A DNA stretch of 64,000 nt from Escarpia spicata (taxonomy: Eukaryota > Annelida > Polychaeta > Sabellida > Siboglinidae), in assembly GCA_963995525.1 (NCBI GenBank), contig OZ023210.1:27994439-28058438 (forward strand). The letters are read 5' to 3'. Positions 8,135 through 64,000 of this stretch are shown here, piece by piece. A program made the translations under genes and the position numbers. The notes beneath the pieces are model-generated. The model saw nothing but the letters and a program-made list of their open reading frames with translations, had not been told where the DNA came from and made no database searches. Each line of letters starts with the position of its first letter. Positions within the stretch are counted from its first letter, which is position 1.

Positions 8135-8840
8135 GAGGTGAATGTACTGTTGACGTTCAGTACGGGTCGTCAGTGCTGCAACTACCGCTAATCATCGTCG
8201 ACAGCGGTGTCTCGTTGTTTGGGCTGAATTGGATACAGGCATTCCAAGTTGACGTCAACTCGCTGCTCTACCCGACAGTGAGCACTACAGCACTATCATC
8301 AACTGACGTCAACTCGCCGCTCTACCCGACAGTGAGCACTACGGCACTATCATCAACTGACATGCACGCTGTAAAAGCAGACGACCTTGAAGTCAAGAAA
8401 GTCATTGCTGATCACCCGGACATCTTCAGTCCTGGCTTGGGTCGGTGCAACAAAACAAAAGGGCATCTGCAACTGAGAGAAGGCGTGCAGCTGAGGTTCC
8501 TGAAAGCCAGACCCGTTCCTTTCGCGCGCCTCGACGCAGTTGAGAAAAAACTGAAACGTCTGCAAGAACTAAACATCATCACAAAGGTTGATTACTCGGA
8601 TTGGGCTAGCCCCATCGTTTTAGTACAAAAGCCAAATGGCAACGTGAGAATTTGCGGAGACTACAGAGCAACAGTCAATCCGTGTCTACATGTACAGCAA
8701 CACCTAATTCCCAGAATTGAGGAACTGTTCGCAAAGTTGCAAAGGGGTACTCACTTCAGCAAGCTGGATATGCGAGATGCATATTTACAGGTCGAGCTGG
8801 ATGACGAGTCAAAAAAAATTGCTCGTCATCAACACACACA
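8131..8840 (+). pseudogene. Ty3/gypsy reverse transcriptase, N-terminal half
   Basis: This segment carries the end of protease and then RT. Visible RT motifs are ELNIITKVDYSDWASPIVLV, PNGNVRICGDYR and FSKLDMRDAYLQVELDDESK (fingers and first palm Asp). A duplication of about 57 bp (CAACTCGC.GCTCTACCCGAC, near 8258 and 8315) lies in the linker before RT. After DDESKK (about 8815) the correct reading continues in another frame. Confidence 0.92.
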
Positions 8841-37000: not shown

Positions 37001-40000
37001 TTGAAGCCATACATGTCTCTGCACTGATTTAATAACATGCCTGGAAAGAGCCGTCAGCCGTAATTTTAATCTTGTATTGATTGTGCATTCAACTCTCGCC
37101 TACAACAGTAATGTTGGAGCCGTGCAGATGATCACACCTACTACCAGCGCAAAGTGTACCAATGTCACTGTTGACTTATCCTAACCACCCACAGGTGGCA
37201 AGTCTACCACATTGGCAGTAGATCTCATTCTGTCTCATTTTCGGATAATCTCAGGGTCTACAGCTTTAGTGCCGAAATCTACCGCCAGACCGATATTTCA
37301 CAGCATATTGTTTCCTGAATTTTAAATCATTATAAACTGGTAAAAAAATAATTAAATTTTCCCTAAAATTTTACAATTACCCAGCTGTGGAGCAATTCCC
37401 TTTCCCACCCACACTCCCCTCGTGACTGTGGTGCCAGATCACCATCTACTGCCATCACATCATGAAAATTGGCAGGTATTCTGCTTTTTGAGCGATGTAA
37501 CTGGGCACCTCTGACTAGCTAGCTGTTTGTGTTGTCATAGCTATCGGTTATGTTGTCATAGCTACCAACTGTGCTATTTTAGCTACTCTCAGACATTGTG
37601 TGTTGTCCAAGTTAGTTGCGTTGCTGTCCTAGCTATCACCTACGTTGTTCTAGCTGCTGTCTGTATTGTCCTAGTTGTTTCTGTACTGACCTGTTCTGAC
37701 GCCTGTCAGGGCGCCTCTCTGACAGAGGTTGTGTGAATGAGATGGGAAACCAACCAATGCTGAAACACAGAAAAATAACATAATATTTATAAAGCATTAA
37801 TAAAAAAACAAATGTGTGTGTGTGTGCATGTGTACGTATGGGCGTGCATGCACGTGTGGGTATGATAATGGTTTCCTCCTAGAAAAATATCTGGTGCCAA
37901 ACTTATAGGGATTCATCTGTAACCCTTCGGAAGAATAGAAAGCCTTTACTTTTTCTAAATTTGCCGTCGGTTTATGGTTTGTACTGGTTTTAGGGTTCGT
38001 ACCAAATGTTAGACAGACACTAATCGATTGTTCACAATGTTAAATGTTTTCTGTAACTGCTTCCTGGTCTATTGGTCTGTTGGTCACATCTTATGTAACT
38101 TGCATTGCGAAACACTTATGTCCTAACAAACGTCACGTAAGAACGCTCTGGGAAACCATCTTCGCACCTATGTGTATGTAGTGCCATGGTATTTTTGCTA
38201 GCTTTCTTAATTTTAATCGCATACCTACATGATATGTTGCATTACCTCTTGGTGTGTATATTCTCCCCGTACTGCCAGCCATCTTTTCTTTCTCCCAACA
38301 CTGCAATGATGTCTCCCTCCATGAAGTTCAGCTGAATGTCATCTGCACTGGTATAGGAATACATTGCTTGCACATGTGAAGAGGCCTGCCGCTGACACGT
38401 GGCAGTCGACTTTTGTTGTGTATCTTCAAAGGCAAAATGAAAACTGTATTTTGGTGTTGTACAAACACTCTATATCATTACCCAGTGGAAACAGGGAAAT
38501 ACCAACTGTAGAGTTTGTGAATTATTTTTCTAAAATGCTGGCATCTACTAATATCTAATATATTAGATGATTTGCCAGTCAAACTGTCCATTCCTTTGTA
38601 CAAGAAGTAAAGGCAAGTTCATATATAGTGCAGTATCCAGTCCTTAGAACTGCCCAAAGTGCTTTGACTTCTCTGTAAAGCATTTAGTCATGCTGCAAAT
38701 AATGCACAAAGACTACTCGTACACTAATATGCACCACTATCTATAGCCAGGTACAGCTGAGAGAACTGGAGCAACGTAGAGTGAACGAACTTGCCCAAGA
38801 TTTGAAATAGCCGCACAGTATTCGAACATGCGTTCTCTTGAGAGTCCAATGCTCTGGACACTGAGCCACTGCACTCCATGAAGGTTCATACATGTATAAC
38901 AATGCTTCATGAAACTGACCCCCAGATGTCCAGCATGCACGCTCACCTGACTGCTGGTTCGGCTCACTGCAGGTAGAGGGCGTACTGCTGCATGTGACAC
39001 TTCCCGACTCGACACACCCGGTCATGTGACGGCCGGTTATTCCATCAGTCTGACGGTCAAAGTCACATTCGGACGCCCTGCGGTGTCTCAGGTCTTGAAT
39101 GTCCTCCACCCCACAATACATCCCGTCCTGCAGAGACGAGAGCCAAGTTGAAGGCGTTCTTTCAAACTGATCTCGCAATTCACTTTTTCATGTCTCATTT
39201 TAGAATTTAATGAAAATTTTATGATATTTTATTATGCATGTCTGAAACCTATGCAAATTAGAAAGTTGCACCTCAATTGGTAGATGGGTGAATGGTGTCA
39301 ATGAACTAACACCGATCAGCAGGGTGTAAAACACTGAAAATGACATGATTGTAGGTCTGTTTATAGGTTGTTTTAGGAATGATGGTCAGAAAACCATTTG
39401 TATGTAAGAATAAGAGAATGTGTCAGCTTTAAAATGATACCATCAGATAGGCCATAAGGGTAATATCCACCATTGAATTTAGTGTTTTGGGCATGTTTTG
39501 TGTAGTACATTTTTGCTCGCTTATCTATCTTTGATGCTAATAAATTTAGTGTTATAACATCTTATCACACACAGTCGCTCAGTTAACCAATGAAAATCAT
39601 TGTTCAGTCCCTTTAGGGGTGGTCTCATCAGTGTGCAAAGTCCAAACAAACACTGTGCATTTAATATTGGTTCATACCCCCGCACCCTTACATGGTGTAG
39701 GACTTGTGATTTTTATGATCCAAAATAGCCACAAGCATAAATTTGTAATAATGTTTCACTCGCTAGGTCAATAAATGTTTCACTCGCTAGGTCAATAAAT
39801 GTTTCGCTCGCTAGGTCAATAAATGTTTCACTCGCTAGGTCAATAAATGTTTCAATAAATGTTTCGCTCGCTAGGTCAATAAATGTTTCCCTCACTAGGT
39901 CAATAAATGTTTCACTCGCTAGGTCAATAAATGTTTCACTCGCTAGGTCAATAAATGTTTCACTCTTTAGGTCAATAAATGTTTCACTCCCTAGGTCAAT

Positions 40001-43000
40001 AAATGTTTCACTCACTAGGTCAATAAATGTTTCACTCCCTATGTAAATAAATGTTTCACTCCCTAGGTCAATAAATGTTTCACTCCCTAGGTCAATAAAT
40101 GTTTCACTCGCTAGGTCAATAAATGTTTCACTCGCTAGGTCAATAAATGTTTCACTCGCTAGGTCAATAAATGTTTCACTCGCTAGGTCAATAAATGTTT
40201 CACTCGCTAGGTCAATAAATGTTTCACTCGCTAGGTCAATAAATGTTTCACTCGCTAGGTCAATAAATGTTTCACTCCCTAGGTCAATAAATGTTTCACT
40301 CGCTAGATCAATAAATGTTTCACTCGCTAGGTCAATAAATGTTTCACTCGCTAGGTCAATAAATGTTTCACTCGCTAGGTCAATAAATGTTTCACTCGCT
40401 AGGTCAATAAATGTTTCACTCGCTAGGTCAATAAATGTTTCACTCGCTAGGTCAATAAATGTTTCACTCGCTAGGTCAATAAATGTTTCACTCGCTAGGT
40501 CAATAAATGTTTCACTCGCTAGGTCAATAAATGTTTCACTCGCTAGGTCAATAAATGTTTCACTCGCTAGGTCAATAAATGTTTCACTCGCTAGGTCAAT
40601 AAATGTTTCACTCCCTAGGTCAATAAATGTTTCACTCACTAGGTCAATAAATGTTTCACTCCCTATGTAAATAAATGTTTCACTCCCTAGGTCAATAAAT
40701 GTTTCACTCCCTAGGTCAATAAATGTTTCACTCGCTAGGTCAATAAATGTTTCACTCGCTAGGTCAATAAATGTTTCACTCGCTAGGTCAATAAATGTTT
40801 CACTCGCTAGGTCAATAAATGTTTCACTCGCTAGGTCAATAAATGTCACTCGCTAGGTCAATAAATGTTTCACTCGCTAGGTCAATAAATGTTTCACTCG
40901 CTAGGTCAATAAATGTTTCACTCGCTAGGTCAATAAATGTTTCACTCGCTAGGTCAATAAATGTTTCACTCGCTAGGTCAATAAATGTTTCACTCCCTAG
41001 GTCAATAAATGTTTCACTCGCTAGATCAATAAATGTTTCACTCGCTAGGTCAATAAATGTTTCACTCGCTAGGTCAATAAATGTTTCACTCGCTAGGTCA
41101 ATAAATGTTTCACTCGCTAGGTCAATAAATGTTTCACTCGCTAGGTCAATAAATGTTTCACTCGCTAGGTCAATAAATGTTTCACTCGCTAGGTCAATAA
41201 ATGTTTCACTCGCTAGGTCAATAAATGTTTCACTCGCTAGGTCAATAAATGTTTCACTCGCTAGGTCAATAAATGTTTCACTCATTAGGTCAATAAATGT
41301 TTCACTCCCTAGGTCAATAAATGTTTCACTCACTAGGTCAATAAATGTTTCACTCCCTATGTAAATAAATGTTTCACTCCCTAGGTCAATAAATGTTTCA
41401 CTCCCTAGGTCAATAAATGTTTCACTCGCTAGGTCAATAAATGTTTCACTCGCTAGGTCAATAAATGTTTCACTCGCTAGGTCAATAAATGTTTCACTCG
41501 CTAGGTCAATAAATGTTTCACTCGCTAGGTCAATAAATGTTTCACTCGCTAGGTCAATAAATGTTTCACTCGCTAGGTCAATAAATGTTTCACTCCCTAG
41601 GTCAATAAATGTTTCACTCGCTAGATCAATAAATGTTTCACTCGCTAGGTCAATAAATGTTTCACTCGCTAGGTCAATAAATGTTTCACTCGCTAGGTCA
41701 ATAAATGTTTCACTCGCTAGGTCAATAAATGTTTCACTCGCTAGGTCAATAAATGTTTCACTCGCTAGGTCAATAAATGTTTCACTCGCTAGGTCAATAA
41801 ATGTTTCACTCGCTAGGTCAATAAATGTTTCACTCGCTAGGTCAATAAATGTTTCACTCGCTAGGTCAATAAATGTTTCACTCGCTAGGTCAATAAATGT
41901 TTCACTCGCTAGGTCAATAAATGTTTCACTCGCTAGGTCAATAAATGTTTCACTCGCTAGGTCAATAAATGTTTCACTCGCTAGGTCAATAAATGTTTCA
42001 CTCGCTAGGTCAATAAATGTTTCACTCGCTAGGTCAATAAATGTTTCACTCGCTAGGTCAATAAATGTTTCACTCCCTAGGTCAATAAATGTTTCACTCG
42101 CTAGATCAATAAATGTTTCACTCGCTAGGTCAATAAATGTTTCACTCGCTAGGTCAATAAATGTTTCACTCGCTAGGTCAATAAATGTTTCACTCGCTAG
42201 GTCAATAAATGTTTCACTCGCTAGGTCAATAAATGTTTCACTCGCTAGGTCAATAAATGTTTCACTCGCTAGGTCAATAAATGTTTCACTCCCTAGGTCA
42301 ATAAATGTTTCACTCGCTAGGTCAATAAATGTTTCACTCGCTAGGTCAATAAATGTTTCACTCGCTAGGTCAATAAATGTTTCACTCGCTAGGTCAATAA
42401 ATGTTTCACTCGCTAGGTCAATAAATGTTTCACTCGCTAGGTCAATAAATGTTTCACTCGCTAGGTCAATAAATGTTTCACTCGCTAGGTCAATAAATGT
42501 TTCACTCGCTAGGTCAATAAATGTTTCACTCGCTAGGTCAATAAATGTTTCACTCGCTAGGTCAATAAATGTTTCACTCGCTAGGTCAATAAATGTTTCA
42601 CTCGCTAGGTCAATAAATGTTTTATTCGCTAGGTCAATAAATGTTTCAATCGCTAGGTCAATAAATGTTTTATTCGCTAGGTCAATAAATGTTTCAATCG
42701 CTAGGTCAATAAATGTTTCACTCGCTAGGTCAATAAATGTTTCACTCGCTAGGTCAATAAATGTTTCACTCGCTAGGTCAATAAATGTTTCACTCACTAG
42801 GTCAATAAATGTTTCACTCGCTAGGTCAATCAATGTTTCACTCGCTAGGTCAATCAATGTTTCACTCACTAGGTCAATAAATGTTTCACTCACTAGGTCA
42901 ATAAATGTTTCCCCACAATACATTGTGTATACCAAACCCCAATGTGATGATGTTAAAAAAATTTAAAACATCGCATATAAAGCGACCCCACTTTAATAAG

Positions 43001-46000
43001 ATTCCCATCAAAAATGGCCGACATTTTGACAAACCATTGGTTGATCAAGGGTCAAACATATTTGTCTTAGTCAACTGAGATACTGACATCGGACTGTTAG
43101 ATTAACAATTTATCCTTTTAGAACTTGATTGCCTGAAAGTATCCGGGCGCCTGCTTTCTCAAGTGCCCGAAAGCATCTTCAGCTTTGACAATGCGTGGAG
43201 GTGGCGTCATCTTGTGGATACTTTGTAACTTGTGTCACTGGATTCCTTAGTGTATCTACTGTGTGTTAGGGGTATTTTTCATATAGCTTTGTACTGGAAG
43301 TTTTTGAATGAGTGCCGTTTGAAAATATTAACTGACAAAGAGTCTGTAGATACACATTGCATTTTATACAAATACACCCAGACGCAGCACATTGTGTCTC
43401 ACGTTTAATTTAGAAGTTGATTAGTATATTTAGTAATGTCTTATGTGGAATTCAATAATCTTTAATATAAGCATAACTTCCTATATTAGGAAACAAAGTA
43501 CAAAAAAGTTAAATGCAAAAACCTAGGTGCATCCGTGTCATAGCTGTTTGTACGCGTTCTGCAAGGATTTGGAGCATGTTTCATAAAACGATGTAAGTTC
43601 TAATGGGTTAGGTGCTATATTATGTGATAGATTGCCTAGAGACAGAATGTTACGTGACCTGGCTGCGGAATGCCTGTATGACTGCCTCAGACGACTCAGG
43701 CAGAGTAGATGGGTCTTCACAAAGACTTTGCCACTCCGATATCTGCTTAGTCACCATTTGATGCATCTACAAGAGAAAAGAGAAATCCATACAAATTATG
43801 CATGTAAAATATCCATCCACATTCAATAAGATAGCTATTGTGGTATTTCAGCATATTTAATGGCTTGAATATAATACAACAATTCTTTTGGAGCAGGATA
43901 TACCACTGCATGCATTTTACAAAATAGTCAATAAATACATTATTTTGTATATTATAAGTCCCCCGTGGTATTGTTAAAAGTTCAAAAAAGGTTTCACTAG
44001 GTTGCCATCAAAAGACACGAGCTCCAGGCTGAATGTGGACAAGGAAGCCTTTGGCTCATCAAGAATCAAACAATTTTTTTTTAATTATACATGTGTAACT
44101 GTTGTTAATGTCTCTCATCAAATTACCACCTTTCTGTTCCTAGTCTTACATTTTAAATCTGTTCGTTATCTAACAAAATACATGTACTGCTGGCAGGTGC
44201 TTAGAAACAACAATGCCCGTACTTTGCAAAGACGTTCTGAGTAGTTATGCATGACAACGCAGGTTCTGTCGACGAGAAAGCAGTAGCATTGTCGTTCTTC
44301 CAGCAAGGCCTGTAACATACAGTATGTCAGTGAACCAGTTCTACCAGTGCCTATGAGGAGAGGGAGTTTATTCAACAACTAATTTCTCCTATCAGTCAGT
44401 CGCAAAGTGGGATCAAATATCAGCGAATGATAAAATAGGATCAATTTACAGCTCACAGATATACAATATATTCACTGCTAATTAGTGCAGATCTTCACTG
44501 GAGATTATACCTGAGAGCAGTAAAATACATTACTTTAATCAGCATATAGTTATATTTAGGCCATCTTTGCATTGCAGAAACCTAATACTTAGGTGCACCA
44601 GTAACAGTAGGCAGGTCATGCCACTTCTACAATTTAATAACAGATGCTGTTATTACCGAGTTATTCCCAGGCAACCATTCCATTGCTGTGGTTGCAGCAT
44701 CATCTAGAGGTGGTTGAGGCTAGATAACTTCTCTCATTACAATCATAATAATGTGTCTCATAACAACTGTGGTGTTATTTTTTAGTTGTGAATGAAACAA
44801 ACTAGCAACAACTGCACTCTTTGTGCCGGTCTAATGACATTGTTGGCTAGGTGACATGGTCTGTCGGGTATTATGGTCTGTTCGGTGACATGGTCTGTCA
44901 GGTCTTGTGGTCTGTTTGGTGGTACAGTGTATGTCGGGTGACACGGTCTGTTGGGTGGCATGGTCTGTCGTGTAACATGGTCTGTCGGGTGGCATGGTCT
45001 GCCTGGTGACACGTTCCGTCGGGTGACACAGTCCATCAGGTGACATGGTCTGTCAGATTGCATGATCCATTGGATGACATGGTCTGTCGGGTGACATTGT
45101 CCATTGGGTGTCATGGTCTGCCAGATGGCATGGTCTGTCAGGTGACACGGTCCGTTGGTTGCCATGGTCTGTCGGGTGTCGTGGTCTGTCGGGTGTTGTG
45201 CTCTGTCGGGTGACATGGTCTGTCGGGTGACATGGTGTGTTGGTGACATGGTCTGTTTAGTGCTTACCTGTCTTAGTCCTTGCAGATGAAACTCATTCAG
45301 ATTGACTCGACATTCCCTGACCTGCCTGGCATACTGCCACAACAGAAGAAACGTTCCCTCAAATAGTCTTCTCCTTTCTTCATCATCATTTCAGTTACAA
45401 TTACATGCTTACAGTACCTGTCTTGGACAAGATATAACATTTTAAAAAAGGTTGACAAAAATATTACTTTATCAATAAATTGTTATAATTGTGTGTGTGT
45501 GTGTGCGTGTGTGCGTGTTTGTGTGTGGGTGCGTGGGTGCGTAGGTGCGTGGGTGCGTGGGTGCGTGGGTGCGTGGGTGCGTGTGCATGTGTGCGTGTAT
45601 GCATGTACATGCATGCATGTGTTTATATGTCTAACACTATAGCAATGTTACAATTATTTAGACACACTCAACAAATAAATCATAATTATTATGATAATTC
45701 TATATGGCCTAAACTAGAAGAGTTATTATAATTTAGACACAATCAACAAACAAAAACTGACAATTACTGCTTTACCTGCATCTCTTTCTGATCAAATCCA
45801 TATTTGGCTTTCGTCTTCTTTTTATGTTTCTTCAAAGCAGCCTGTGCTTTATCGTACGGTACTGCATTGTACTTGTGTCCTGCCATGTACTTCTTGTAGA
45901 CTGCCTAGCAACCACAAACACACATACATTGTACCTGTGTCCTGCCATGTACTTCTTGTAGACTGCCTAGTAACCACAAACACACATACATTGTACTTGT

Positions 46001-49000
46001 GTCCTGCCATGTACTTCTTGTAGACTGCCTAGCAACCACAAACACACATACATTGTACTTGTGTCCTGTCATGTACTTCTTGTAGACTGCCTAGCAACCA
46101 CAAACACACATACATTGTACCTGTGTCCTGCCATGTACTTCTTGTAGACTGTCTAGCAACCACAAACACACATACATTGTACTTGTGTCCTGCCATGTAC
46201 TTCTTGTAGACTGCCTAGCAACCACAAACACACATACATTGTACTTGTGTCCTGCCATGTACTTCTTGTAGACTGTTTAGCAACCACAAACACACATACA
46301 TTGTACTTGTGTCCTGCCGTGTACTTCTTGTAGACTGTCTAGCAACCACAAACACACATACATTGTACTTGCGTCCTGCCGTGTACTTCTTGTAGACTGC
46401 CTAGCAACCACAAACACACATAAATGGTACTTGTATCCTGCCATGTACTTCTTGTAGACTGCCTAGCAACCACAAACACACATACATTGTACTTGTGTCC
46501 TGTCATGTACTTCTTGTAGACTGCCTAGCAACCACAAACACACATACATTGTATTTGTGTCCTGCCGTGTACTTCTTGTAGACTGTCTAACAACCACAAA
46601 CACACATACATTGTACTTGTGTCCTGCCGTGTACTTCTTGTAGACTGCCTAGCAACAACAAACACACATCAATGGTACTTGTATCCTGCCATGTAATTCT
46701 TGTAGACTGCCTAGCAACCACAATCACACATACATTGTACTTGTGTCCTGCCATGTACTTCTTGTAGACTGCCTAGCAACCACAAACAAACAGACATTGT
46801 ACTTGTGTCCTGCCATGTACTTCTTGTAGACTGTCTAGCAACCACAAACACACATACATTGTACTTGTGTCCTGCCGTGTACTTCTTGTAGACTGCCTAG
46901 CAACCACAAATACACATAAATGGTACTTGTATCCTGCCATGTAATTCTTGTACACTGCCTAGCAACCACAATCACACATACATTGTACTTGTGTCCTGCC
47001 ATGTACTTCTTATAGACTGCCTAGCAACCACAAACAAACAGACATTGTACTTGTGTCCTGCCATGTACTTCTTGTAGATTGTCTAGCAACCACAAACATA
47101 CATACATTATACTTGTGTCCTGCCATGTACTTCTTGTAGACTGTCTAGCAACCACAAACACACATACATTGTACTTGTGTCCTGCCATGTACTTCTTGTA
47201 GACTGCCTAGCAACCACAAACACACATAAATGGTACTTGTATCCTGCCGTGTACTTCTTGTAGACTGCCTAGCAACCACAATCACACATACATTGTACTT
47301 GTGTACTGCCATGTACTTCTTGTAGACTGTCTAGTAACTACAAACACACATACATTGTACTTGTGTCCTGCCATGGACTTCTTGTAGACTGCCTAGCAAC
47401 CACAAACACACATACATTGTACTTGTGTCCTGCCATGTACTTCTTGTAGACTCCTAGCAACCACAAACACACATATATACACACACACGCGTGCCTGCGC
47501 ACACACACACACTCATACTTGTATCCTGGCATGTACTTCTCTTCCTGGCATCCAAAAACACTGAATGTTGGCTGTTATCGGCAAGTTGTGTTTTGATGTA
47601 AACAATTTACTCGCTTTGAAATTTGCACACTTCACTTGAGTAGAAATGTCCAGGTTTTTGGTGCAATGTTCAACGGTCTTTATGCAATATTTATGAAAAA
47701 CCTGTGCGTGTGTGTGTGCGTGCATGCTTGTGTTATCAACCCACCTGTATCTGTTTATATTCCGCTTCGTGTTTTGTCTCCAGTGGCATCAATAATTCTG
47801 AATGAAACAGTTTTATCTGAAAAAAATTATTCACAATAGTTCAGGATTATTTTTATTCACATATGAAAGCATGCACAGGTACATGCAGGCATACGCAAGC
47901 ATGCACACATGCACGCACGCATGCACACACACATACACCCTGTATGGGTGTATGTGGTGTACAATGCACTTCATGTGTGTGTATGGTATGTGAGCATATT
48001 ATTATGTAGAAGTACTAATGTACTGTGTAACCTGTAATACACTCAAACAACCCATTGCTACCTTACCTGGTAATGAACTTTAACACATAGCATTAATTAC
48101 ACAAAGTTGTTAGCATAATGAAACAGTTAAGTGCTATTAGAGGTGCCACTGCCTGCTCTGTCACAGGAGCCACACCCTCTGCTAAGTGTAGTCCTGCACA
48201 TTTCCCCTTAGATAACAACCACACTGTTATCCCACAATTACTGATCAATGTTACATAAGTACAGTTTACAGTGGACATATTCTGAATTGCTGGGGACCCT
48301 TTCCCTAAGACTATGAAGTTGTAAGGAAAATCTATCATTAAACAGAATCTGCTGTTAGCTTTAAGGAACATTTTTAATATGCCAAACGCCAAGATATTGG
48401 GGAATTGAAAACCAGGTTTCTTGTAGAAAAATTAAGACTAATGAATATTAAAGCTGCCAGCAAGTGAATAAATGTGCTGCGGAGATAAGAAACCTAAATT
48501 CGGTGAAAACACCATGCCTTCAGATGACAGAGGAATCTTACTACATTTCTTCCTGACCTAACATTTCACTACAGCAGGTGTGTTCAGGTGGTGATTATGA
48601 CTTGAGCGTCTGTGATCGCTTGTGGCCACTTACATTGTCGACAACCTGCGTATTGATGTGTCGGCACACTTCCGCAAGCTGCAGCAAGGCAGTCCCTAAA
48701 ACGAACAGGTGCAAATGTGAGGCAGACCACACCTTCACACTTTATGGACGCTACAGAAATATAGCCAACATTAAATCTTTATGCAGATCATGCATTCGTG
48801 TGTGCGTGTGTGTGCATGTGTTTGTACTTTGGTGCAGTCTATGTCCATGTATAACTGTGTATGGTTAGTCAACTGGTGAATGTGCGGTTTGTCTATTTCC
48901 GCAACTACGCTATATAATTACAAGATGGCATAATGGTTTCACAGAGCCGTGAAGAACTAATAAATTATTCAACTTAGGGGTGTTGTGATAATTAACCAGC

Positions 49001-59700: not shown

Positions 59701-62700
59701 CGGTGCGAGGTCAAAACCCCAGCGGACATAACCCCAGCAGACAAAACCCCAGCCTCTTATTTTAAATGAGGACAAAACCCCAGCGATGCCTAGAATGTTT
59801 TGGTGTATCATAAATTGTCTATGTATACATTATAACCTTATTTAAATAAGTGTTGAATTTGTTTATAGTAATGCACTTTAGTTTCCAATATTGTTGATAG
59901 ACATTATTATATTTTCCAATTAGGGGTATAATAAACAATTAGCAGCAGACACTGGGTAGAAGAGTGAGGCTGTTAGCATTACATCTCAGACACATGCAGA
60001 GTGTGAACAAAATTGTCCACGCTTCAAAATAGCAAGATACATGAAATGTGCCACATGCTGTGATAAAAACCGGAGAATAAAATTCAACCGACCAAAAATG
60101 TAAATAATCAGGAAGTAATGAACATTATAGCTGTTGGTTAGTCATACACTGTGCCCAGTGCATGGTCAATGTTCTCTGTAGAGGCCCAACTCACTTGTGA
60201 TCCTGCATACCCGATAATACTTAGAACGTCAAATTATCATCCCTCATCATAGGAGACAGACATGGAAGAATTAATCAGATTTTAATCAGATGGTGCCTGG
60301 TAGTTACGTTGTTAGTTATGGTTGTTAGTTATGGTTGTTAGTTATGGTTGTGACTAGGACAGGTCGCTTGGTTCGCAATGTGGGAGTCCTCTCCAGGTCA
60401 ATCTACCTTCAGCAAGTGAGTACCAGTGTTGGATTCATGCTGTTTTCTTCAAATATCACATTCCTACATTTTGTATCTAAGTTTGGGCCGGCCACTGTTT
60501 TTGGTTGTTTCCAACAGTTGTGAGAATAGAGTTTGTGGTCATCCGTACAAACCACACAACTGTTTGTCTGAAGTTTATCTGCATAGGAAGTTGTTATATG
60601 CTTTGTTTGCCCTTTTGAATATTTCTTTGTTGGTAATGTGCACAATATCTCCATATTGGATTCTTCCCCAAAATACTGTACGCCCCTTCATCTCTGTGTG
60701 CTTACCGACATCGCTGGTAGCCCCCTTGCATACTTGGCCATTCTGGGCCAGGCCATACATACAGTCTATGTAGGACTTGGCCGCCGATGTCATATCTGCA
60801 ACAAACATCTCCAATTTATGAGATCACGAGTCAAACTAAAATTATAATTACAACCACGTTAATAATGATTTTCAGAAATAAATTTTGTACAACAGATTTT
60901 GATCATTTATTTTATATAACATTTTTTATTACTGGAAAGGATTTTGCACAACTAATCTAAAGATACATTTAACTGATGCTGCTCTCTAGATTCTAGTGAT
61001 ACTAGATTCTGCTATGACACCATTAAGGTCACCCTCTAGACTCGACTAGAGTCATCTGAATGGTGAGGTGATCATAAGCGGGACTAATTTCCTATACTTT
61101 TGTGTTGCGGAAATAATGTCCTAGGGTGATCATAATTGTAAGATGTCTGTATTAGAGAGGTGGTTGTAATATAAGGTTTGACTGTAGATAGAATGGCATA
61201 AAACGATGGAGGAGAATGCTACTAATTCCATGAAGGGTTCGGGGGGGGGGGGGTCAAGTAAATTAAATCTGTTTTGATAACAGGCATTACATGTAGAAAT
61301 GATGTGTCATTTGTCAGTAGGCCCAATATGCATACAGTCTAATTGGCTGTTCTCTTTTGGTTGTAAATTATGTACAAATTACACAAGCTGTATCTGACAT
61401 CACTAAGTAGATGCATTCATAATCGACCAGGGTGTACAGCGCTGTATTTACAAAGTTCACTATTTGTTTTGTTTATATCTTTATATTTACTGTGACATGG
61501 TGGTGAAAACAGAACGATGATAGAATTGGCATCAAAACAAAACCTTTGTTGCAAAGTGGTGGAACGCAGTCAGATTGAATTAAATTCTTCATTTATCATT
61601 TATATACTTTGATATATAAATTAATAAGTATTAGAAGCAATGTTTCTCCACTTGATATTGATTGGTTCCACATCCTACGTGTAAGATAATCTGCAGCGGC
61701 ACTTTCACAACAAAACACACACGGGTCTCAGGAGAATCCACCAGGAAATTGCTTGACTCACTGGAGAGTGTAGCAAGAATTATTCATGCCTTGGAAACAC
61801 TGCAGCAACAAGAAATGTGAAAACGTTTATTTGTTCAGAAAACACCAGGTACCTGTGTCATGTGACTCAGATCTGACTGTCAGAGACAGGACTAGAGTCT
61901 GGCCACACTGTGCATAGAAGCACTGGATATTAGTGTTCTAAATGTTGCCATGTAGAGGTGAAGTAATCACACTCAGTATTCATATTTCGTAACCGTAACC
62001 ATTGAGTGATTGTACAAGTACTTTAGTACATTTGTCAAAAGTCAAAGTAATCATAATCATGCTTGAATTCAATGCCAAAGTAATCATAATTTATCAGGAT
62101 CATAATTACAACAATCGTTGTGTGTGAGTCCAAAGTACAATGCAAGCAGGCAGACTTAGGTGACTTACATACTACCCATTGTGCCCTCTGGAGTTTAGGG
62201 CAGCGACAAAGTTCCTCCAACTTAGGCGAACTACATAAAAATTTATTTGCTAGCATCGTTTCTACTTGTTAGTATGTTACCCCTTAGTATTGTAAATTAG
62301 AAAGCTGTAAAGACGTTGTGCAGTGGAACCTCACTATTAAGGTCACCCTTGGGACTAAATCAAAGTTATGTGAATAGCCAGGTGACCGTATTAGCGAGAC
62401 TGATATTCAATACTTAACTGTATTTCTGAATATGGATCAACTTTGGGATTATCCTAGGATGACCTTAATTGCGAGATGGCTATATTACTGAGGTGACCAC
62501 AAAGCAAGGTTCGTTTGTACATACAACTGCTAAGCCATGATTGCAATCATGATTACACAAATGTAATCATATCTGCAACCACATACGTACAAGGACTATG
62601 TAATCGTCCTTGTACGTATATCCATGAATTTCAGCAATAATCTTAATTGTTTACATTTGTGGTGTAATCACCCTATCTCTTCTGGGGAGATACTCCACTA

Positions 62701-63520
62701 GCATACATCCATAAAATATTTATTGGGACAGAAGGATACGTCACAATCCTGTCAATAAATAACTAGTCAGACAACACAGTTTTAAAACCTGAAATTTGTT
62801 TACTTCTGTTAACACAGAACAACAGAATATGGACTATTTGTGTGTGCTTGTGTACATGCATGCATGTTTGTGGTGATGGTGTATGTGCTAATGTGTATGC
62901 ATCACAGCTTTACCTAGAGACCCATCCACCCATCTTTTGGATGGACGGAGTTCATTTTGGATGGGTGGAAATTTGAGTTGAGGGACTGAAAAAAAATTTT
63001 TTATTGAAGATATTGTTCATGGCTACAAGATTAAATTTTAATAGCAAGAATTAAATTTACATTGGACCCGTATTTTAAACTTGCAACATGACATCAGATC
63101 AAGATCCGCTGTAGACGGATCGAAACGTTGCATGTTTCAAATACAACTCCAATGTAAGTTTTATTCTTGCTATTAAATTTGTTTTATTATTATTATTATT
63201 ATTGATTCTCATCTGTGTTATTTGTCCATTATGCTTTAAAATGTATGTCATACTTGTGTTTGTTTGTATTATTGTGTACATGCGCATCTCTGTATCTATA
63301 TATGCATCTGGACTGGATTATACACATGTACACGCAGGCAGACGTGTGTATCTACCGGGACGTTTTTGGTACCAATTTGATCCTGCACAAAGGCATGAAG
63401 ACATGCGTGCATCTGGTGCATGTGTGTCCCACCCCAACACTTACTGAGCACTGACTTCTGGTACACACGTCCTGTACTGATGAGTTGCTTGATGCCAGGG
63501 TTGAAATTGTCTATCAGGTT
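26424..63520 (-). CDS. BAIAP2: I-BAR/SH3 adaptor gene, BAIAP2 family (IRSp53/IRTKS-like), 13 visible exons
   Basis: Exons run right to left: 63520-63445, 60795-60706, 48695-48634, 45900-45776, 45333-45268, 44309-44223, 43766-43659, 39127-38947, 38423-38246, 37759-37691, 35769-35580, 31071-30919 and 26980-26424. All have AG acceptors and GT donors, and phases agree at every junction except 48634 to 45900. The first seven encode the IMD/I-BAR domain (membrane binding, Rac), then a linker, an SH3 domain (binds proline-rich partners such as WAVE or Mena in known members) and a proline-rich tail. The initiating exon is beyond 64000. The symbol denotes family; whether it is orthologous to all vertebrate paralogues together is inference. 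Confidence 0.9.
27001..30918 (-). other. Intron of the IRSp53-like gene
   Basis: Holds an AC microsatellite (28017-28047) and a degenerate region of CCCCTCACAGA/GGACAAA-like pieces (28650-28795). GATTGCATTTCATGG is repeated near 28953 and 29034. No coding exon was recognised. ORFs through the AC tract are artefacts. Confidence 0.6.
28017..28110. repeat. AC microsatellite and ACACCCACA-type extension
   Basis: An uninterrupted AC run from about 28018 to 28047 is followed by impure CA-rich DNA containing CACCCACAAATACACCCACAA. Confidence 0.9.
30919..31071 (-). CDS. BAIAP2: IRSp53-like exon: linker after SH3
   Basis: Acceptor TTGTCTGCCAG and donor GAG|GTATCG. 153 bp, phase 0 to 0, 51 codons: MFIPKTILEAEEKYVASPVS, ending with GGSRDRIE. 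It is Ser/Pro-rich and has no known domain. It is placed by open frame and exact phase agreement with its neighbours rather than by strong similarity. Confidence 0.78.
31481..34021 (+). mobile_element. Tigger/pogo-like DNA transposon with matching terminal inverted repeats
   Basis: CAGTAAACCTCGCATAAGTC at 31481 is matched exactly by its reverse complement ending at 34021. The left flank is TA, the right flank is TC, so the TA target duplication is damaged on one side. The motif AAGTCGGAT recurs inside the left end (about 31497, 31589, 31657), with further forms at the right end, which could be transposase-binding sites. The element is 2.54 kb and encloses a broken transposase gene. It lies in an intron of the IRSp53-like gene, antisense to it. 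Confidence 0.93.
32315..33594 (+). pseudogene. Tigger/pogo transposase (CENP-B-like), broken
   Basis: The start MATKQKIKTKMYEEKL shifts frame within the first helix-turn-helix, then STTLKDVAAHFEMSTSTMSD (psq-type HTH) and ITSSWIDRFKKRHGLVRVQ (CENPB-type DNA binding, ending 32744) follow. After a stop come the catalytic-domain motifs SDIYNADETGLFW (first Asp, about 32830) and ITLIIDNCTAHM (second Asp, about 33130). The tail has DDYVGVDETAETL and ends TQSKMTDFYNQ at 33594. At least four stops or frameshifts make it inactive. Related host genes are TIGD/JRK. Confidence 0.92.
34022..35579 (-). other. Intron sequence, no further feature seen
   Basis: AT-rich intron between the exons at 35580 and 31071. 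No repeat element or exon was recognised outside the Tigger copy. Confidence 0.5.
35580..35769 (-). CDS. BAIAP2: IRSp53-like exon: Tyr/Ser-rich linker
   Basis: Acceptor GGTTTATCCAG and donor AAAG|GTATCG. 190 bp, phase 2 in and 0 out. It encodes LRHRVKSLGNLYDLGNPNYQ, then LQRSHTIAERPMSMYVDGSQ and LYNVQTTPYGLTK. SLGNL recalls the short S-x-GNL motif in the linker after SH3 of vertebrate members. Several Tyr residues are in acidic or Asn-Pro contexts. Confidence 0.87.
36190..36720 (+). mobile_element. 5'-truncated LINE: C-terminal end of reverse transcriptase
   Basis: A 135-codon ORF has LPLLSYCYKIWGTTCSTT and LQKRVVRLMCGVNRVCHT, the conserved post-RT region of many animal LINEs. It then runs through a stop into a further conserved-looking tail. 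There is no endonuclease or RT core, so the copy was truncated at the 5' end on insertion. It sits in the intron between 35769 and 37691, antisense to the host gene. Confidence 0.82.
36721..37690 (-). other. Intron, no feature beyond a short imperfect repeat
   Basis: GTTGTC.TAGCTA/TTGTCCTAGCT-like pieces repeat loosely at 37530-37680. They give a spurious Cys/Tyr-rich ORF. Nothing else is recognised. Confidence 0.5.
37691..37759 (-). CDS. BAIAP2: IRSp53-like exon: end of SH3 domain
   Basis: Acceptor TCTGTGTTTCAG and donor ACAG|GTCAGT. 69 bp, phase 2 to 2. It encodes IGWFPISFTQPLSERRPDRR. The GWFP.S(Y/F) motif is the last conserved block of SH3 domains and matches GWFPFSYT in IRSp53. Confidence 0.93.
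38246..38423 (-). CDS. BAIAP2: IRSp53-like exon: main part of SH3 domain
   Basis: Acceptor TTTGCCTTTGAAG and donor AAGAG|GTAATG. 178 bp, phase 1 in and 2 out, both fitting the neighbours. It encodes a short linker, then SSHVQAMYSYTSADDIQLNF, MEGDIIAVLGERKDGWQYGE and NIHTK. The ALYDY-like strand, the acidic RT loop and DGW.YGE with ..TK agree specifically with the BAIAP2 family SH3 (DGWHYGE..KTK). Confidence 0.95.
38597..38877 (-). mobile_element. Second copy of the tRNA-derived SINE
   Basis: On the minus strand it reads GAGTGCAGTGGCTCAGTGTC, then GTTCGAATACTGTGCGGC (B box, mutated), GGGCAAGTTCGTTCACTCTA and CTAAGGACTGGATACTGCAC, followed by TATATGAACTTGCCTTTACTT. This is the same order of blocks as at 15822-16181, with small internal deletions. 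It lies in the host intron before the SH3 exon, sense to the host gene. Confidence 0.92.
38947..39127 (-). CDS. BAIAP2: IRSp53-like exon: linker between I-BAR and SH3
   Basis: Acceptor CTCGTCTCTGCAG and donor TCAG|GTGAGC. 181 bp, phase 0 in and 1 out. It encodes DGMYCGVEDIQDLRHRRASE, then CDFDRQTDGITGRHMTGCVE and a Ser/Thr/Cys-rich end. This linker is poorly conserved across the family, so the call rests on splice sites and phase. Confidence 0.82.
39752..42911. repeat. 3.16-kb minisatellite, 24-bp unit, about 132 copies
   Basis: The unit is CACTCGCTAGGTCAATAAATGTTT, almost free of length changes. The one clear indel is a 2-nt loss near 40845, which splits the repeat ORF in two. Variant units (CTCCCTATGTAAAT at 40035, 40659, 41353; CGCTAGATCA at 40301, 41019, 41619, 42099) recur at 20, 25, 26, 29 and 30 units, showing segmental higher-order duplication. 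TTTATTCGCT and TTTCAATCGC variants alternate near 42620-42710. It lies in the host intron between 43659 and 39127. Confidence 0.98.
42912..43658 (-). other. Intron, no feature
   Basis: Unique-looking AT-rich intron between the 24-bp array and the exon at 43659. No repeat or ORF of note. Confidence 0.5.
43659..43766 (-). CDS. BAIAP2: IRSp53-like exon: end of I-BAR domain
   Basis: Acceptor TTCTCTTGTAG and donor CCAG|GTCACG. 108 bp, phase 0 to 0. It encodes MHQMVTKQISEWQSLCEDPS and TLPESSEAVIQAFRSQ. It aligns with the KLPLWQQACADPSKIPERAV region that closes the IRSp53 I-BAR domain. Confidence 0.92.
44223..44309 (-). CDS. BAIAP2: IRSp53-like exon: I-BAR helix with EERRRFCFLV-type motif
   Basis: Acceptor TGTATGTTACAG and donor GCAAA|GTACGG. 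87 bp, phase 0 to 0. It encodes ALLEERQCYCFLVDRTCVVM and HNYSERLCK. ALLEE....CFLVD..C is the best conserved signature of the family's I-BAR domain. Confidence 0.94.
44845..45257. repeat. 17-bp minisatellite, about 24 copies, abutting a 5' splice site
   Basis: The unit is GACATGGTCTGTCGGGT with frequent single-base changes (copies are more diverged than in the 24-bp and 62-bp arrays). On the minus strand it begins about 10 nt after the donor of the exon 45268-45333. It generates a long minus-strand ORF with HPTDHVTRQTM-like repeats that is continuous with the exon. I regard that ORF beyond the donor as an artefact. Confidence 0.93.
45268..45333 (-). CDS. BAIAP2: IRSp53-like exon: I-BAR domain
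   Basis: Acceptor TCTGTTGTGGCAG and donor GACAG|GTAAGC. 66 bp, phase 0 to 0. It encodes YARQVRECRVNLNEFHLQGL and RQ, aligning with the YLE.....CELQNFHSSGLRQ-type segment of family members and leading directly into ALLEER in the next exon. Confidence 0.92.
45492..45620. repeat. GT-rich microsatellite with GGGTGCGT units
   Basis: A GT run passes into about seven GTGGGTGC/GTGGGTGCGT copies and then mixed GCATGT. It is a simple repeat in the short intron between two I-BAR exons. Confidence 0.93.
45776..45900 (-). CDS. BAIAP2: IRSp53-like exon: I-BAR helix; source of the 62-bp array
   Basis: Acceptor GTTGCTAGGCAG and donor GCAG|GTAAAG. 125 bp, phase 1 in and 0 out. After two bases it encodes YKKYMAGHKYNAVPYDKAQA, then ALKKHKKKTKAKYGFDQKEM and Q. 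It aligns with LKKYQTEQRSKGDALDKCQAELKKLRKK...DKELQ of IRSp53. The basic KK.KKK cluster is the membrane-binding face in known I-BAR domains. The first 35 nt and the acceptor are repeated some 25 times upstream. Confidence 0.92.
45901..47475. repeat. 62-bp tandem array of splice acceptor plus first 35 nt of an exon, about 25 copies
   Basis: Seen on the minus strand, every unit is GTTGCTAGGCAG (acceptor), 35 nt starting TCTACAAGAAGTACATGG, then GTATGTGTGTTTGTG. Units stay in exact 62-bp register from 45900 to 47450 with no indel except at the last unit (CTCCTAG for CTGCCTAG). The AG acceptor survives in all units I read, while the GTATGT donor-like site is lost in some (TAAATGG variant near 46421, 46670, 46918, 47228, spaced 4, 4 and 5 units). 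Confidence 0.96.
47476..47560. repeat. Degenerate edge copy of the exon-derived unit and CA tract
   Basis: On the minus strand, TTTTTGGATGCCAG is followed by GAAGAGAAGTACATGCCAGG and ATACAAGTATGAG. This is clearly related to the array unit but more diverged, with a CA/GT tract between it and the regular array. It may be the oldest copy. Confidence 0.7.
47561..48633 (-). other. Intron; expected I-BAR exon not found
   Basis: By alignment, about 25 residues of I-BAR domain should be encoded between the exons ending at 48634 and beginning at 45900. I read the minus strand of this stretch in all frames and saw no similar segment. It holds CA/GT-rich DNA and unique AT-rich sequence. A lone donor-like CAG|GTAAGG at about 48066 has no matching exon. 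Confidence 0.5.
48634..48695 (-). CDS. BAIAP2: IRSp53-like exon: I-BAR domain
   Basis: Acceptor TGTTCGTTTTAG and donor ACAAT|GTAAGT. 62 bp, phase 1 in and 0 out. With the previous exon it gives TALLQLAEVCRHINTQVVDN, aligning with LGDVLFQMAEVHRQIQNQLEEM. Direct splicing to 45900 would shift the frame and hit a stop after about 22 codons. Confidence 0.9.
48696..50150 (-). other. Intron, no feature of note
   Basis: AT-rich. A TA run lies at 49629-49643. No exon or element recognised. Confidence 0.5.
50160..50340. repeat. Imperfect AACAATGTA-type minisatellite
   Basis: Units of 9-15 bp built from AACAATGTA and TATTGTAACA recur irregularly, partly in inverted sense (ACAATGT/ACATTGT). They give a Cys/Tyr-rich spurious ORF on the minus strand. 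Confidence 0.75.
50675..50707. repeat. CT microsatellite
   Basis: An uninterrupted (CT)n of about 16 units. Single-base slippage is expected to vary between individuals. Confidence 0.95.
51360..52520. repeat. Loose repeated modules with a CATCCGACACCAAAAC motif
   Basis: TCCATCCGACAC.AAAAC or close forms occur at about 51617, 52122, 52145 and 52332, with a weaker form at 52499. GGGGTTAAT occurs with them near 52180 and 52373, about 195 bp apart. This suggests two to three diverged modules of about 200 bp. No coding content is recognised; ORFs of 60-100 codons here look incidental. Confidence 0.5.
52539..52568. repeat. 14-bp perfect palindrome arms, 2-nt spacer
   Basis: GATGTGGACTCACG, then GA, then CGTGAGTCCACATC. 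It lies 40 bp before the MITE at 52608. Confidence 0.85.
52608..52767. mobile_element. MITE-like element with 17-bp terminal inverted repeats
   Basis: The left end GGGGCCGGTTTCATGAA is mirrored by TTCATGAAACCGGACCC at the right, one mismatch in 17. The 160-bp interior is non-coding and contains a second inverted pair (AGCGTTAAGAACGCT). The (C)CGGTTTCATGAA terminus type is widespread in marine invertebrate genomes. No target duplication is certain. Confidence 0.85.
52967..53015. mobile_element. Fragment of the foldback element seen at 63033
   Basis: CTAATAGCAAGAACTAAACC then TACATTGGAG, followed by AAACTTGCAA, corresponds to the left arm of the element at 63033-63180. The right arm is missing. 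Confidence 0.65.
53060..54200 (-). other. Intron, no feature of note
   Basis: ORFs at 53087-53398 (plus) and 53489-53716 (minus) show no recognisable motif and no consistent splice context. I treat the region as intron. Confidence 0.4.
54205..54320. mobile_element. Partial MITE copy (AACCTCACTAT family)
   Basis: AAACCTCACTATCAATGTCACC, then ACCTGAATAGTGAAGTGACC and TTAATAGAGGGATTA, follow the order of blocks in the copy at 62321-62517. The right end is not preserved. Confidence 0.65.
55470..55660 (+). mobile_element. LINE 3' fragment ending in a hairpin
   Basis: ACCTCTTATATACAGAGAAG, CCCAGAACACATTTTTCATC and following bases match the minus-strand LINE fragment at 13932-14100. In translation the segment HFIKLWNDL fits a RT C-terminal tail. 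At 55633-55660 it ends in a perfect 13-bp inverted repeat (TCGAGTGTCTGCA, 2-nt loop). Confidence 0.65.
55661..57590 (-). other. Intron; poly-G and poly-C tracts, no exon
   Basis: G8 and C12 runs occur at about 56863 and 57000-57012, and a CG-rich patch GGCGGCGCGGCGGC at 57050. A related GGCGC..-type stretch is at 56000. No coding exon recognised. Confidence 0.4.
57590..58275. repeat. 20-bp minisatellite with 100-bp higher-order unit
   Basis: The basic unit is GTGTCACTGCAGCTGTCAAA. A five-unit block including GTGTTACTACAGTTGTATAT is repeated exactly every 100 bp (starts 57731, 57831, 57931, 58031). Most units carry the palindrome CAGCTG. ORFs with CHCSCQ or VSLQLS repeats follow from the period. 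It lies in the intron between the second and third visible exons. Confidence 0.96.
58280..60300 (-). other. Intron; a short AAAACCCCAGC cluster
   Basis: CCCATA is repeated at 58537-58554. At 59715-59785 the motif GACAAAACCCCAGC(G) recurs about five times with interruptions. No exon is seen. Confidence 0.5.
60308..60352. repeat. 13-16-bp tandem repeat, 3 copies
   Basis: GTTGTTAGTTATG is repeated three times in a row. Confidence 0.85.
60706..60795 (-). CDS. BAIAP2: IRSp53-like exon: I-BAR domain
   Basis: Acceptor GATGTTTGTTGCAG and donor TGTCG|GTAAGC. 90 bp, phase 1 to 1. It encodes MTSAAKSYIDCMYGLAQNGQ and VCKGATSDV, aligning with VTYAAKGYFDALVKMGELAS of IRSp53. A junction codon AAT is formed with the previous exon. 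Confidence 0.94.
61017..61186. mobile_element. MITE copy (AACCTCACTAT family)
   Basis: ATTAAGGTCACC at the left and GGTGGTTGTAATATAAGGTT TGACTG at the right frame about 170 bp, with internal ATCATAAGCGGGACTAATTTCC and CCTAGGGTGATCATAATT. The blocks correspond to those at 62321-62517. Confidence 0.7.
61187..62320 (-). other. Intron, no exon seen
   Basis: A G11 run lies at about 61240. The minus ORF at 62035-62256 shows no supporting splice context. Confidence 0.45.
62321..62517. mobile_element. MITE, most complete copy of the AACCTCACTAT family
   Basis: The left end CAGTGGAACCTCACTATTAA then GGTCACC is mirrored, imperfectly, by GGTGACCACAAAGCAAGGTT CG at the right. Ends of the type CAGTGGAACCTC are typical of small Tc1/mariner/pogo-derived elements. 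Internal AGCGAGACT and CCTAGGATGACCTTAATTG are shared with the other two copies. Confidence 0.75.
62536..62619. repeat. Palindrome cluster
   Basis: CATGATTGCAATCATG is a perfect 16-bp palindrome (62536-62551). ATACGTACAAGGAC and its exact complement GTCCTTGTACGTAT form 14-bp arms with a 9-nt loop (62583-62619). Confidence 0.85.
63033..63180. mobile_element. 148-bp foldback element with hammerhead-like core
   Basis: The left arm AATAGCAAGAATTAAATTTA, CATTGGA is mirrored at the right by TCCAATGTAAGTTTTATTCT, TGCTATT. A second inner pair (AAACTTGCAAC / GTTGCATGTTT) encloses a core with stem GATCCG..CGGATC followed by GAAAC. This layout recalls the CTGANGA-stem-GAAAC core of hammerhead motifs carried by Penelope-like elements and retrozymes, but CTGANGA is degenerate here (CAGATCA). 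Confidence 0.7.
63184..63204. repeat. TTA microsatellite
   Basis: (TTA)6-7 directly after the foldback element, possibly its tail. Confidence 0.85.
63445..63520 (-). CDS. BAIAP2: IRSp53-like exon: I-BAR domain (first visible exon)
   Basis: Acceptor GTCGCTCTCTTGCAG and donor CTCA|GTAAGT. 76 bp, phase 0 in and 1 out. It encodes NLIDNFNPGIKQLISTGRVY and QKSVL, aligning with IMEQFNPSLRNFIAMGKNYEKAL, residues about 20-45 of IRSp53. Upstream exon(s) with the start codon lie beyond the window. Confidence 0.93.
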
Positions 63521-64000
63521 CTGCAAGAGAGCGACACAGAAGAACAATCAATACATCATAAACCTCACAAGAACTAAAAATGCCGACCACTGGTCGACAT
63601 ATAATCAATGCACGTGTGCTTACATGTGTGTGTGTGGGGGGGGGTGCTTATGTGTGTGTGCTTGCATGTGTGGGTGTGCATGTGTGCACGAAGCCTGTTA
63701 GAAAAAATGTCTGTTTGACAAAATGTTATAATTTATACCAACGCCTGCTGCCACATACAAGAAGGATGAACAACTAATTGCTCGACAATGGAGGTGTGAG
63801 CCAAGACTCAACCTAAACAATATGCAGTTAACCAATTACACATATTAAATTCAAAGATTAAAACTCCTTTGTTGATTAATTTACCATGATGAGGGTAGGA
63901 TAAATGCATTAAAAAAAAAACCTTTTGGCAATTATTTCTGATGTGTTGAACCTACCAACAATTGATAATGTAATAATAATTATTAATGCAGGCTTATGCA
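63521..64000 (-). other. Intron upstream of the first visible exon
   Basis: GT-rich stretch (63622-63690) with a G8 run. No exon recognised. Confidence 0.5.

Follow-up and report, generated by a model that had tools for sequence, protein, structure and literature searches.

A tandem array of mirage type across an exon-intron boundary of an I-BAR gene in Escarpia spicata

Within the window, by which we mean the whole 64,000-nt stretch of Escarpia spicata DNA that was analysed, a tandem array of 62-bp units runs across the 5' edge of an exon of an IRSp53-type I-BAR gene. Its unit straddles the border between an intron and an exon of the host gene, as the structural definition of a mirage requires, and the array (45865-47475) is a long, clean, single-locus example of one. 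We consider it very probable that it is a neutral minisatellite of the acceptor type that is spliced out with its intron, a silence that would rest on the precedent of the amphioxus cases discussed below.

The array arose by tandem duplication of a segment that comprises the opening 39 nt of exon 5 (E5) and the 23 nt of intron directly before them. Unequal exchange or slippage in the TG-rich end of the intron was probably the cause, and the segment spread to about 26 copies, partly, it would seem, as multi-unit blocks, as the likeness of units at lag 4 suggests. The real exon edge is the unit that is transcribed last, and the extra copies are intronic. Most likely the spliceosome skips these extra copies, since under exon definition only the last copy would lead to a full-size exon with its own donor, and E4 would join E5 as usual.

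The host gene and the exon edge

The host gene lies on the minus strand, and its exons are listed in Table 1. E3, E4 and E5 joined encode 86 residues, which match the Pfam IMD domain at 39.3 bits (cut-off 26.2) and align without gaps over 76 residues (E 3.3e-10) with IRSp53 in PDB 1wdz, which we take to be the human protein; the assignment to an I-BAR gene in the sequence-only reading is thereby borne out. In the later part of E5, the alignment to an approximate guide sequence has a three-residue gap. Taken singly, several exons match this guide weakly (E 0.004 to 2.9), and E2 to E8 joined without any array unit are open throughout. The two features of an IRSp53/BAIAP2-type gene, an IMD and a downstream SH3 domain, are both present, the latter at 38457-38248 (E 2.4e-7) and, with GWFPISF, at 37755 (E 0.57; tblastn with the approximate guide). 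The gene model is a prediction from exon order, open frames and splice signals.

A search for homologous proteins gave 708 candidates, none of them at E <= 0.001. In a profile search of the genome with PF08397 (I-BAR), one match was listed, a single stretch at C11:22255146-22255355, and the split I-BAR exons of the window itself were absent from that list. The C11 match is from a later part of the domain and presumably belongs to a MIM-like gene; nothing in the 30 kb around it matched the start of E5.

E5 begins at 45904 at phase 0, with the acceptor gttgctag/GCAGTC, rather than at 45900 as had been read before. The true start is fixed by E4, because a start at 45900 would lose four bases and shift the frame. 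E4 had been overlooked, and with it in place the phase gap that was claimed between the exons at 48634 and 45900 disappears: E3, E4 and E5 join at phase 0, and the two extra array copies that were invoked to bridge the gap are not needed. The unit itself has to be redrawn as well, from the 3' splice site with 35 nt of exon plus 15 nt to 39 nt of exon and 23 nt of intron.

Table 1. Features of the array and of its host gene in the window, with the basis on which each was placed
Feature	Position	Strand	Basis
Tandem array	45865..47475	-	Tandem Repeats Finder and units in register
Diverged unit copy across the boundary (with intron end and exon start; 6-nt deletion)	47501-47561	-	Local score against shuffles
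Terminal part of exon E1, ...NLIDNFNPGIKQLISTGRVYQKSVL	63445..63523	-	Guide sequence, E 0.25, weak alone
Exon E2, 90 nt, MTSAAKSYIDCMYGLAQ...	60706..60795	-	Placed by eye
Exon E3, 62 nt, last residues VDN, phase 0 at its end, donor AAT/GTAAGT	48634..48695	-	IRSp53 alignment
Exon E4, 72 nt, phase 0-0, IKLFHSELLMPLETKHEAEYKQIQ	47745..47816	-	IRSp53 alignment
Exon E5, 129 nt, phase 0-0, AVYKKYMAGHKYN...KEMQ	45776..45904	-	IRSp53 alignment
Exon E6, 66 nt, YARQVRECRVNLNEFHLQGLRQ	45268..45333	-	By eye, from domain order
Exon E7, 87 nt, ALLEERQCYCFLVD...	44223..44309	-	Guide sequence, E 0.004
Exon E8, 108 nt, MHQMVTKQISEWQSLCEDPSTLP...	43659..43766	-	Guide sequence, E 0.022
SH3-domain exons of the I-BAR gene (38457-38248 and 37755-37702)	37702..38457	-	tblastn, guide sequence

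Extent, register and variation of the units

Tandem Repeats Finder describes the array as 26.0 copies of a 62-bp unit, with 93% matches and, after rounding, about 0% indels. On the minus strand, each unit consists of 23 nt of intron end, GTATGTGTGTTTGTGGTTGCTAG, which opens with a donor-like GTATGT, followed by 39 nt of exon start, that is, 13 codons for AVYKKYMAGHKYN. Together with the alignment of the units to the 5' edge of the I-BAR exon, this confirms the 62-bp satellite of exon starts that had been noticed from the sequence. Unit 0 is the genuine E5 edge, made of the first 39 nt of that exon and the 23 nt preceding it. The register, which had been described as perfect, is so in units 0-24, none of which has an indel, but unit 25 (47453), the farthest of the array, has a 1-base deletion. 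A diverged copy of the boundary is found beyond the extent first given for the array (45776..47475), at 47501-47561. This copy has a local score of 55, compared with 24 for the best of 500 mononucleotide shuffles, and its exon part alone scores 40 (27 for shuffles); it is probably an older relic outside the Tandem Repeats Finder array. No further copy of the unit was found at 47817-48633, where the local score of 23 was reached by 11 of 500 mononucleotide shuffles.

One might suspect that the copies were inflated or misjoined by the assembler, especially as the locus turned up in a single assembled copy, with no second haplotype for comparison among the matches scored. However, the units differ from unit 0 by 0-5 bases, no 120-base word occurs twice within the array, and the flank 47520-48720 matched full-length once in the genome (best 40 of 344 candidates scored), so that long reads would resolve the array easily; we regard such an artefact as exceedingly improbable. 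A two-unit query against the 1.06-Gb genome gave 14 matches among the best-scored candidates, all of them in the array, in a search that skipped very common words and scored the best candidates only. Other matches to the flank are short pieces of two repetitive stretches, ~48280-48391 and 47858-47945. The stretch at 48280-48391 is a dispersed repeat of ~100 bp that occurs on many contigs, with 76-91% identity among the matches listed, and is perhaps a piece of a SINE.

Variation was counted in units 0-24, unit 25 being left out for its deletion. Variable sites number 15 of 39 in the exon part and 10 of 23 in the intron part, with 36 and 20 differing cells, respectively. Within the exon part, the variable sites are spread over the three codon positions as 5/5/5 and the differing cells as 19/11/6, and the distinct changes comprise 4 silent and 11 replacement changes, where the silent fraction expected without selection is 0.24 under a transition bias that we set ourselves. 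Exon and intron parts thus vary alike, and the counts give no sign of coding constraint. Selection on the exon-derived codons would appear to be absent, although the power of the counts is weak, as the events are few and shared by copying.

Units 0, 2 and 5 are identical, and the mean difference between units is 3.1 at lag 4, compared with 3.75-4.74 at every other lag up to 12. This pattern suggests block duplication and a homogenisation that reaches the real exon edge.

Tandem repeats occupy about 7600 of the 64,000 bases of the window (Tandem Repeats Finder rows, merged by hand), and in such repeat-rich surroundings a boundary-spanning array is less surprising than it would be elsewhere.

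Three further repeats were observed. An array of 23.9 copies of a 17-bp unit (44850-45256) sets in near the 12th base of the intron that follows E6; it was considered as another mirage and rejected, because the E6 donor lies outside it. About 130 copies of a 24-bp unit (39750-42911) fill part of a later intron of the I-BAR gene and show long open stretches in one frame, an openness that is expected of a unit that is a multiple of 3. A 54-bp duplication (8250-8361) is located in a long open frame that, by eye, resembles a retrotransposon pol gene.

Splice signals in the copies and their possible use

Most copies retain the signals that would be needed for splicing. Of the extra units, 25 in number, 24 retain AG, 21 retain GT and 20 retain both. 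The donor-like GT is thus present in many units, as had been stated, and the AG, said to be in every unit read, is in all but unit 6 (46276), which reads AA. Such retention could reflect upkeep, although recent copying would give equal retention.

Acceptors and donors were scored with a rough weight matrix. On this scale the real acceptor scores 1.79, and among extra units 1-24 ten acceptors have the same score, three reach 3.72, seven have 0.82 and three −0.15, while the remaining unit has no AG. Of the 25 array donors, 19 score 2.36 and two −1.67, and four units have no GT; the eight real donors of the gene range from −0.64 to 7.07, three of them below 2.36. For comparison, on the minus strand at 43.8-63.4 kb, a background that includes most real sites, 7.9% of 1019 other AGs equal or exceed the score of the real acceptor, and 2.3% of 1116 other GTs equal or exceed that of the common array donor. 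The consensus unit contains no branch-point-like YTNAY word, which leaves the real exon, like most copies, poorly provided with branch points. Of the seven such words in the intron, three precede the array and the remaining four lie in variant units, ~21 nt ahead of the acceptors 46400, 46648, 46896 and 47206; acceptor 46648 is also one of the three with the top score. These four acceptors may be better than the real one, and their YTNAY words count somewhat against the array being silent in splicing. RNA folding of three array stretches was ordinary (z −1.31, −0.66 and −0.83, with 40 shuffles each), and Rfam gave nothing at gathering score within the 64-kb window.

If such acceptors were used, some transcripts might run from an array acceptor to the E5 donor and be truncated, and the length of the array would then lower gene output via mRNA decay. 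All 25 read-through forms (AG-less unit 6 included) do run into a stop, which is, however, expected, because a 62-bp repeat (2 mod 3) is read in changing frames. By the rough weights, several array acceptors equal or surpass the real one, and the four with a branch-point-like word have what the real one does not. Against this, the amphioxus mirages that were tested reportedly splice normally (PMC3087553), and we consider tuning by poison acceptors very unlikely.

Alternatively, single or spaced units might be included as mini-exons of 39 nt, each adding 13 residues to the I-BAR helix. A single cassette is frame-neutral because 39 nt is 0 mod 3, both flanking exons join at phase 0, and of the 20 units that have AG as well as GT, 19 proved to be in frame and free of stops when taken as single cassettes. 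Nevertheless, the replacement changes among the units are about as frequent as expected without selection. Moreover, 39 nt is short for an exon, adjacent units are 23 nt apart and too close for mutual splicing, and an insert of 13 residues is off the heptad. Cassettes of this kind are, in our judgement, very doubtful.

Both outcomes could be combined in a splicing switch set by copy number, in which ~25 competing acceptors poison the message or add 13-residue blocks, and the length of the array would thereby set how much I-BAR protein is made or what shape it has. The units of the acceptors 46400, 46648, 46896 and 47206 would be the ones used, and an array homogenised with the real edge could also pass replacement changes to E5 by conversion. 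We hold such a switch to be distinctly improbable. Regulated use of the array is possible, but the noisy or tunable splicing that the sequence-only reading had proposed finds no support here; the unconstrained variation of the units and the reported behaviour of amphioxus mirages favour a neutral array that is removed with its intron.

Relation to known mirages and to intron gain

Minisatellites that span exon-intron boundaries were described as mirages in amphioxus, in Adh3, the globins BflGb6 and BflGb9, and troponin C (PMC3087553). Repeats of 60 and 108 bp over splice sites were found in lancelet PGBD5 (PMC3902484). The BflGb6 unit joins an intron's 3' end to the 5' portion of exon 2, measures 150-160 bp, and is present in 6 and 3 units in different haplotypes, and the units of the Adh3 mirage are 10-72 bp long (PMC3087553). 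Many mirage units carry AG/GT, which the authors regard as possible cryptic sites, whereas RT-PCR of BflGb6 and the Adh3 data were taken as regular splicing with no interference (PMC3087553). Amphioxus mirages are homogenised inside, with the boundaries of the cluster exempt, and the authors propose mirages as a source of introns and discuss the tandem duplication of segments bearing AG/GT, from which new introns or mini-exons could be made (PMC3087553).

The array in Escarpia resembles BflGb6 in that its unit joins an intron 3' end to an exon 5' part and carries AG/GT in many copies, and its 62-bp unit falls within the range of Adh3. Units that are alike inside and diverged at the edge of the cluster are seen here too, the latter in the copy at 47501-47561. 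In contrast to BflGb6, there are about 26 copies of a much shorter unit, and no divergence is seen at the real-exon edge. Unlike in the amphioxus mirages, the exon part here amounts to exactly 13 codons with a donor-like GTATGT directly after them and is frame-neutral, and the host family is that of IRSp53-type I-BAR genes.

Intron gain by tandem genomic duplication was reportedly described by Zhuo in 2007. As in that process, a segment that carries splice signals is repeated in tandem in the array, but the extra copies lie inside an existing intron and no new one is evident. Human duplicated genes have internal tandem repeats where exons meet introns, and these may turn cryptic sites into active ones and so create introns; in recent human duplicates they average 4 units of 30 bp (PMC2812944), compared with about 26 units at one locus here.

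If the array is silent, it would provide a clean natural experiment in splice-site choice, in which ~25 copies of a true acceptor are offered in a nearly matched context and one is picked, and junction reads would measure the weight of exon size and a downstream donor relative to that of the acceptor itself. If the copies are used, the length of a minisatellite would be linked to the output of a gene. The array may also extend mirages beyond amphioxus.
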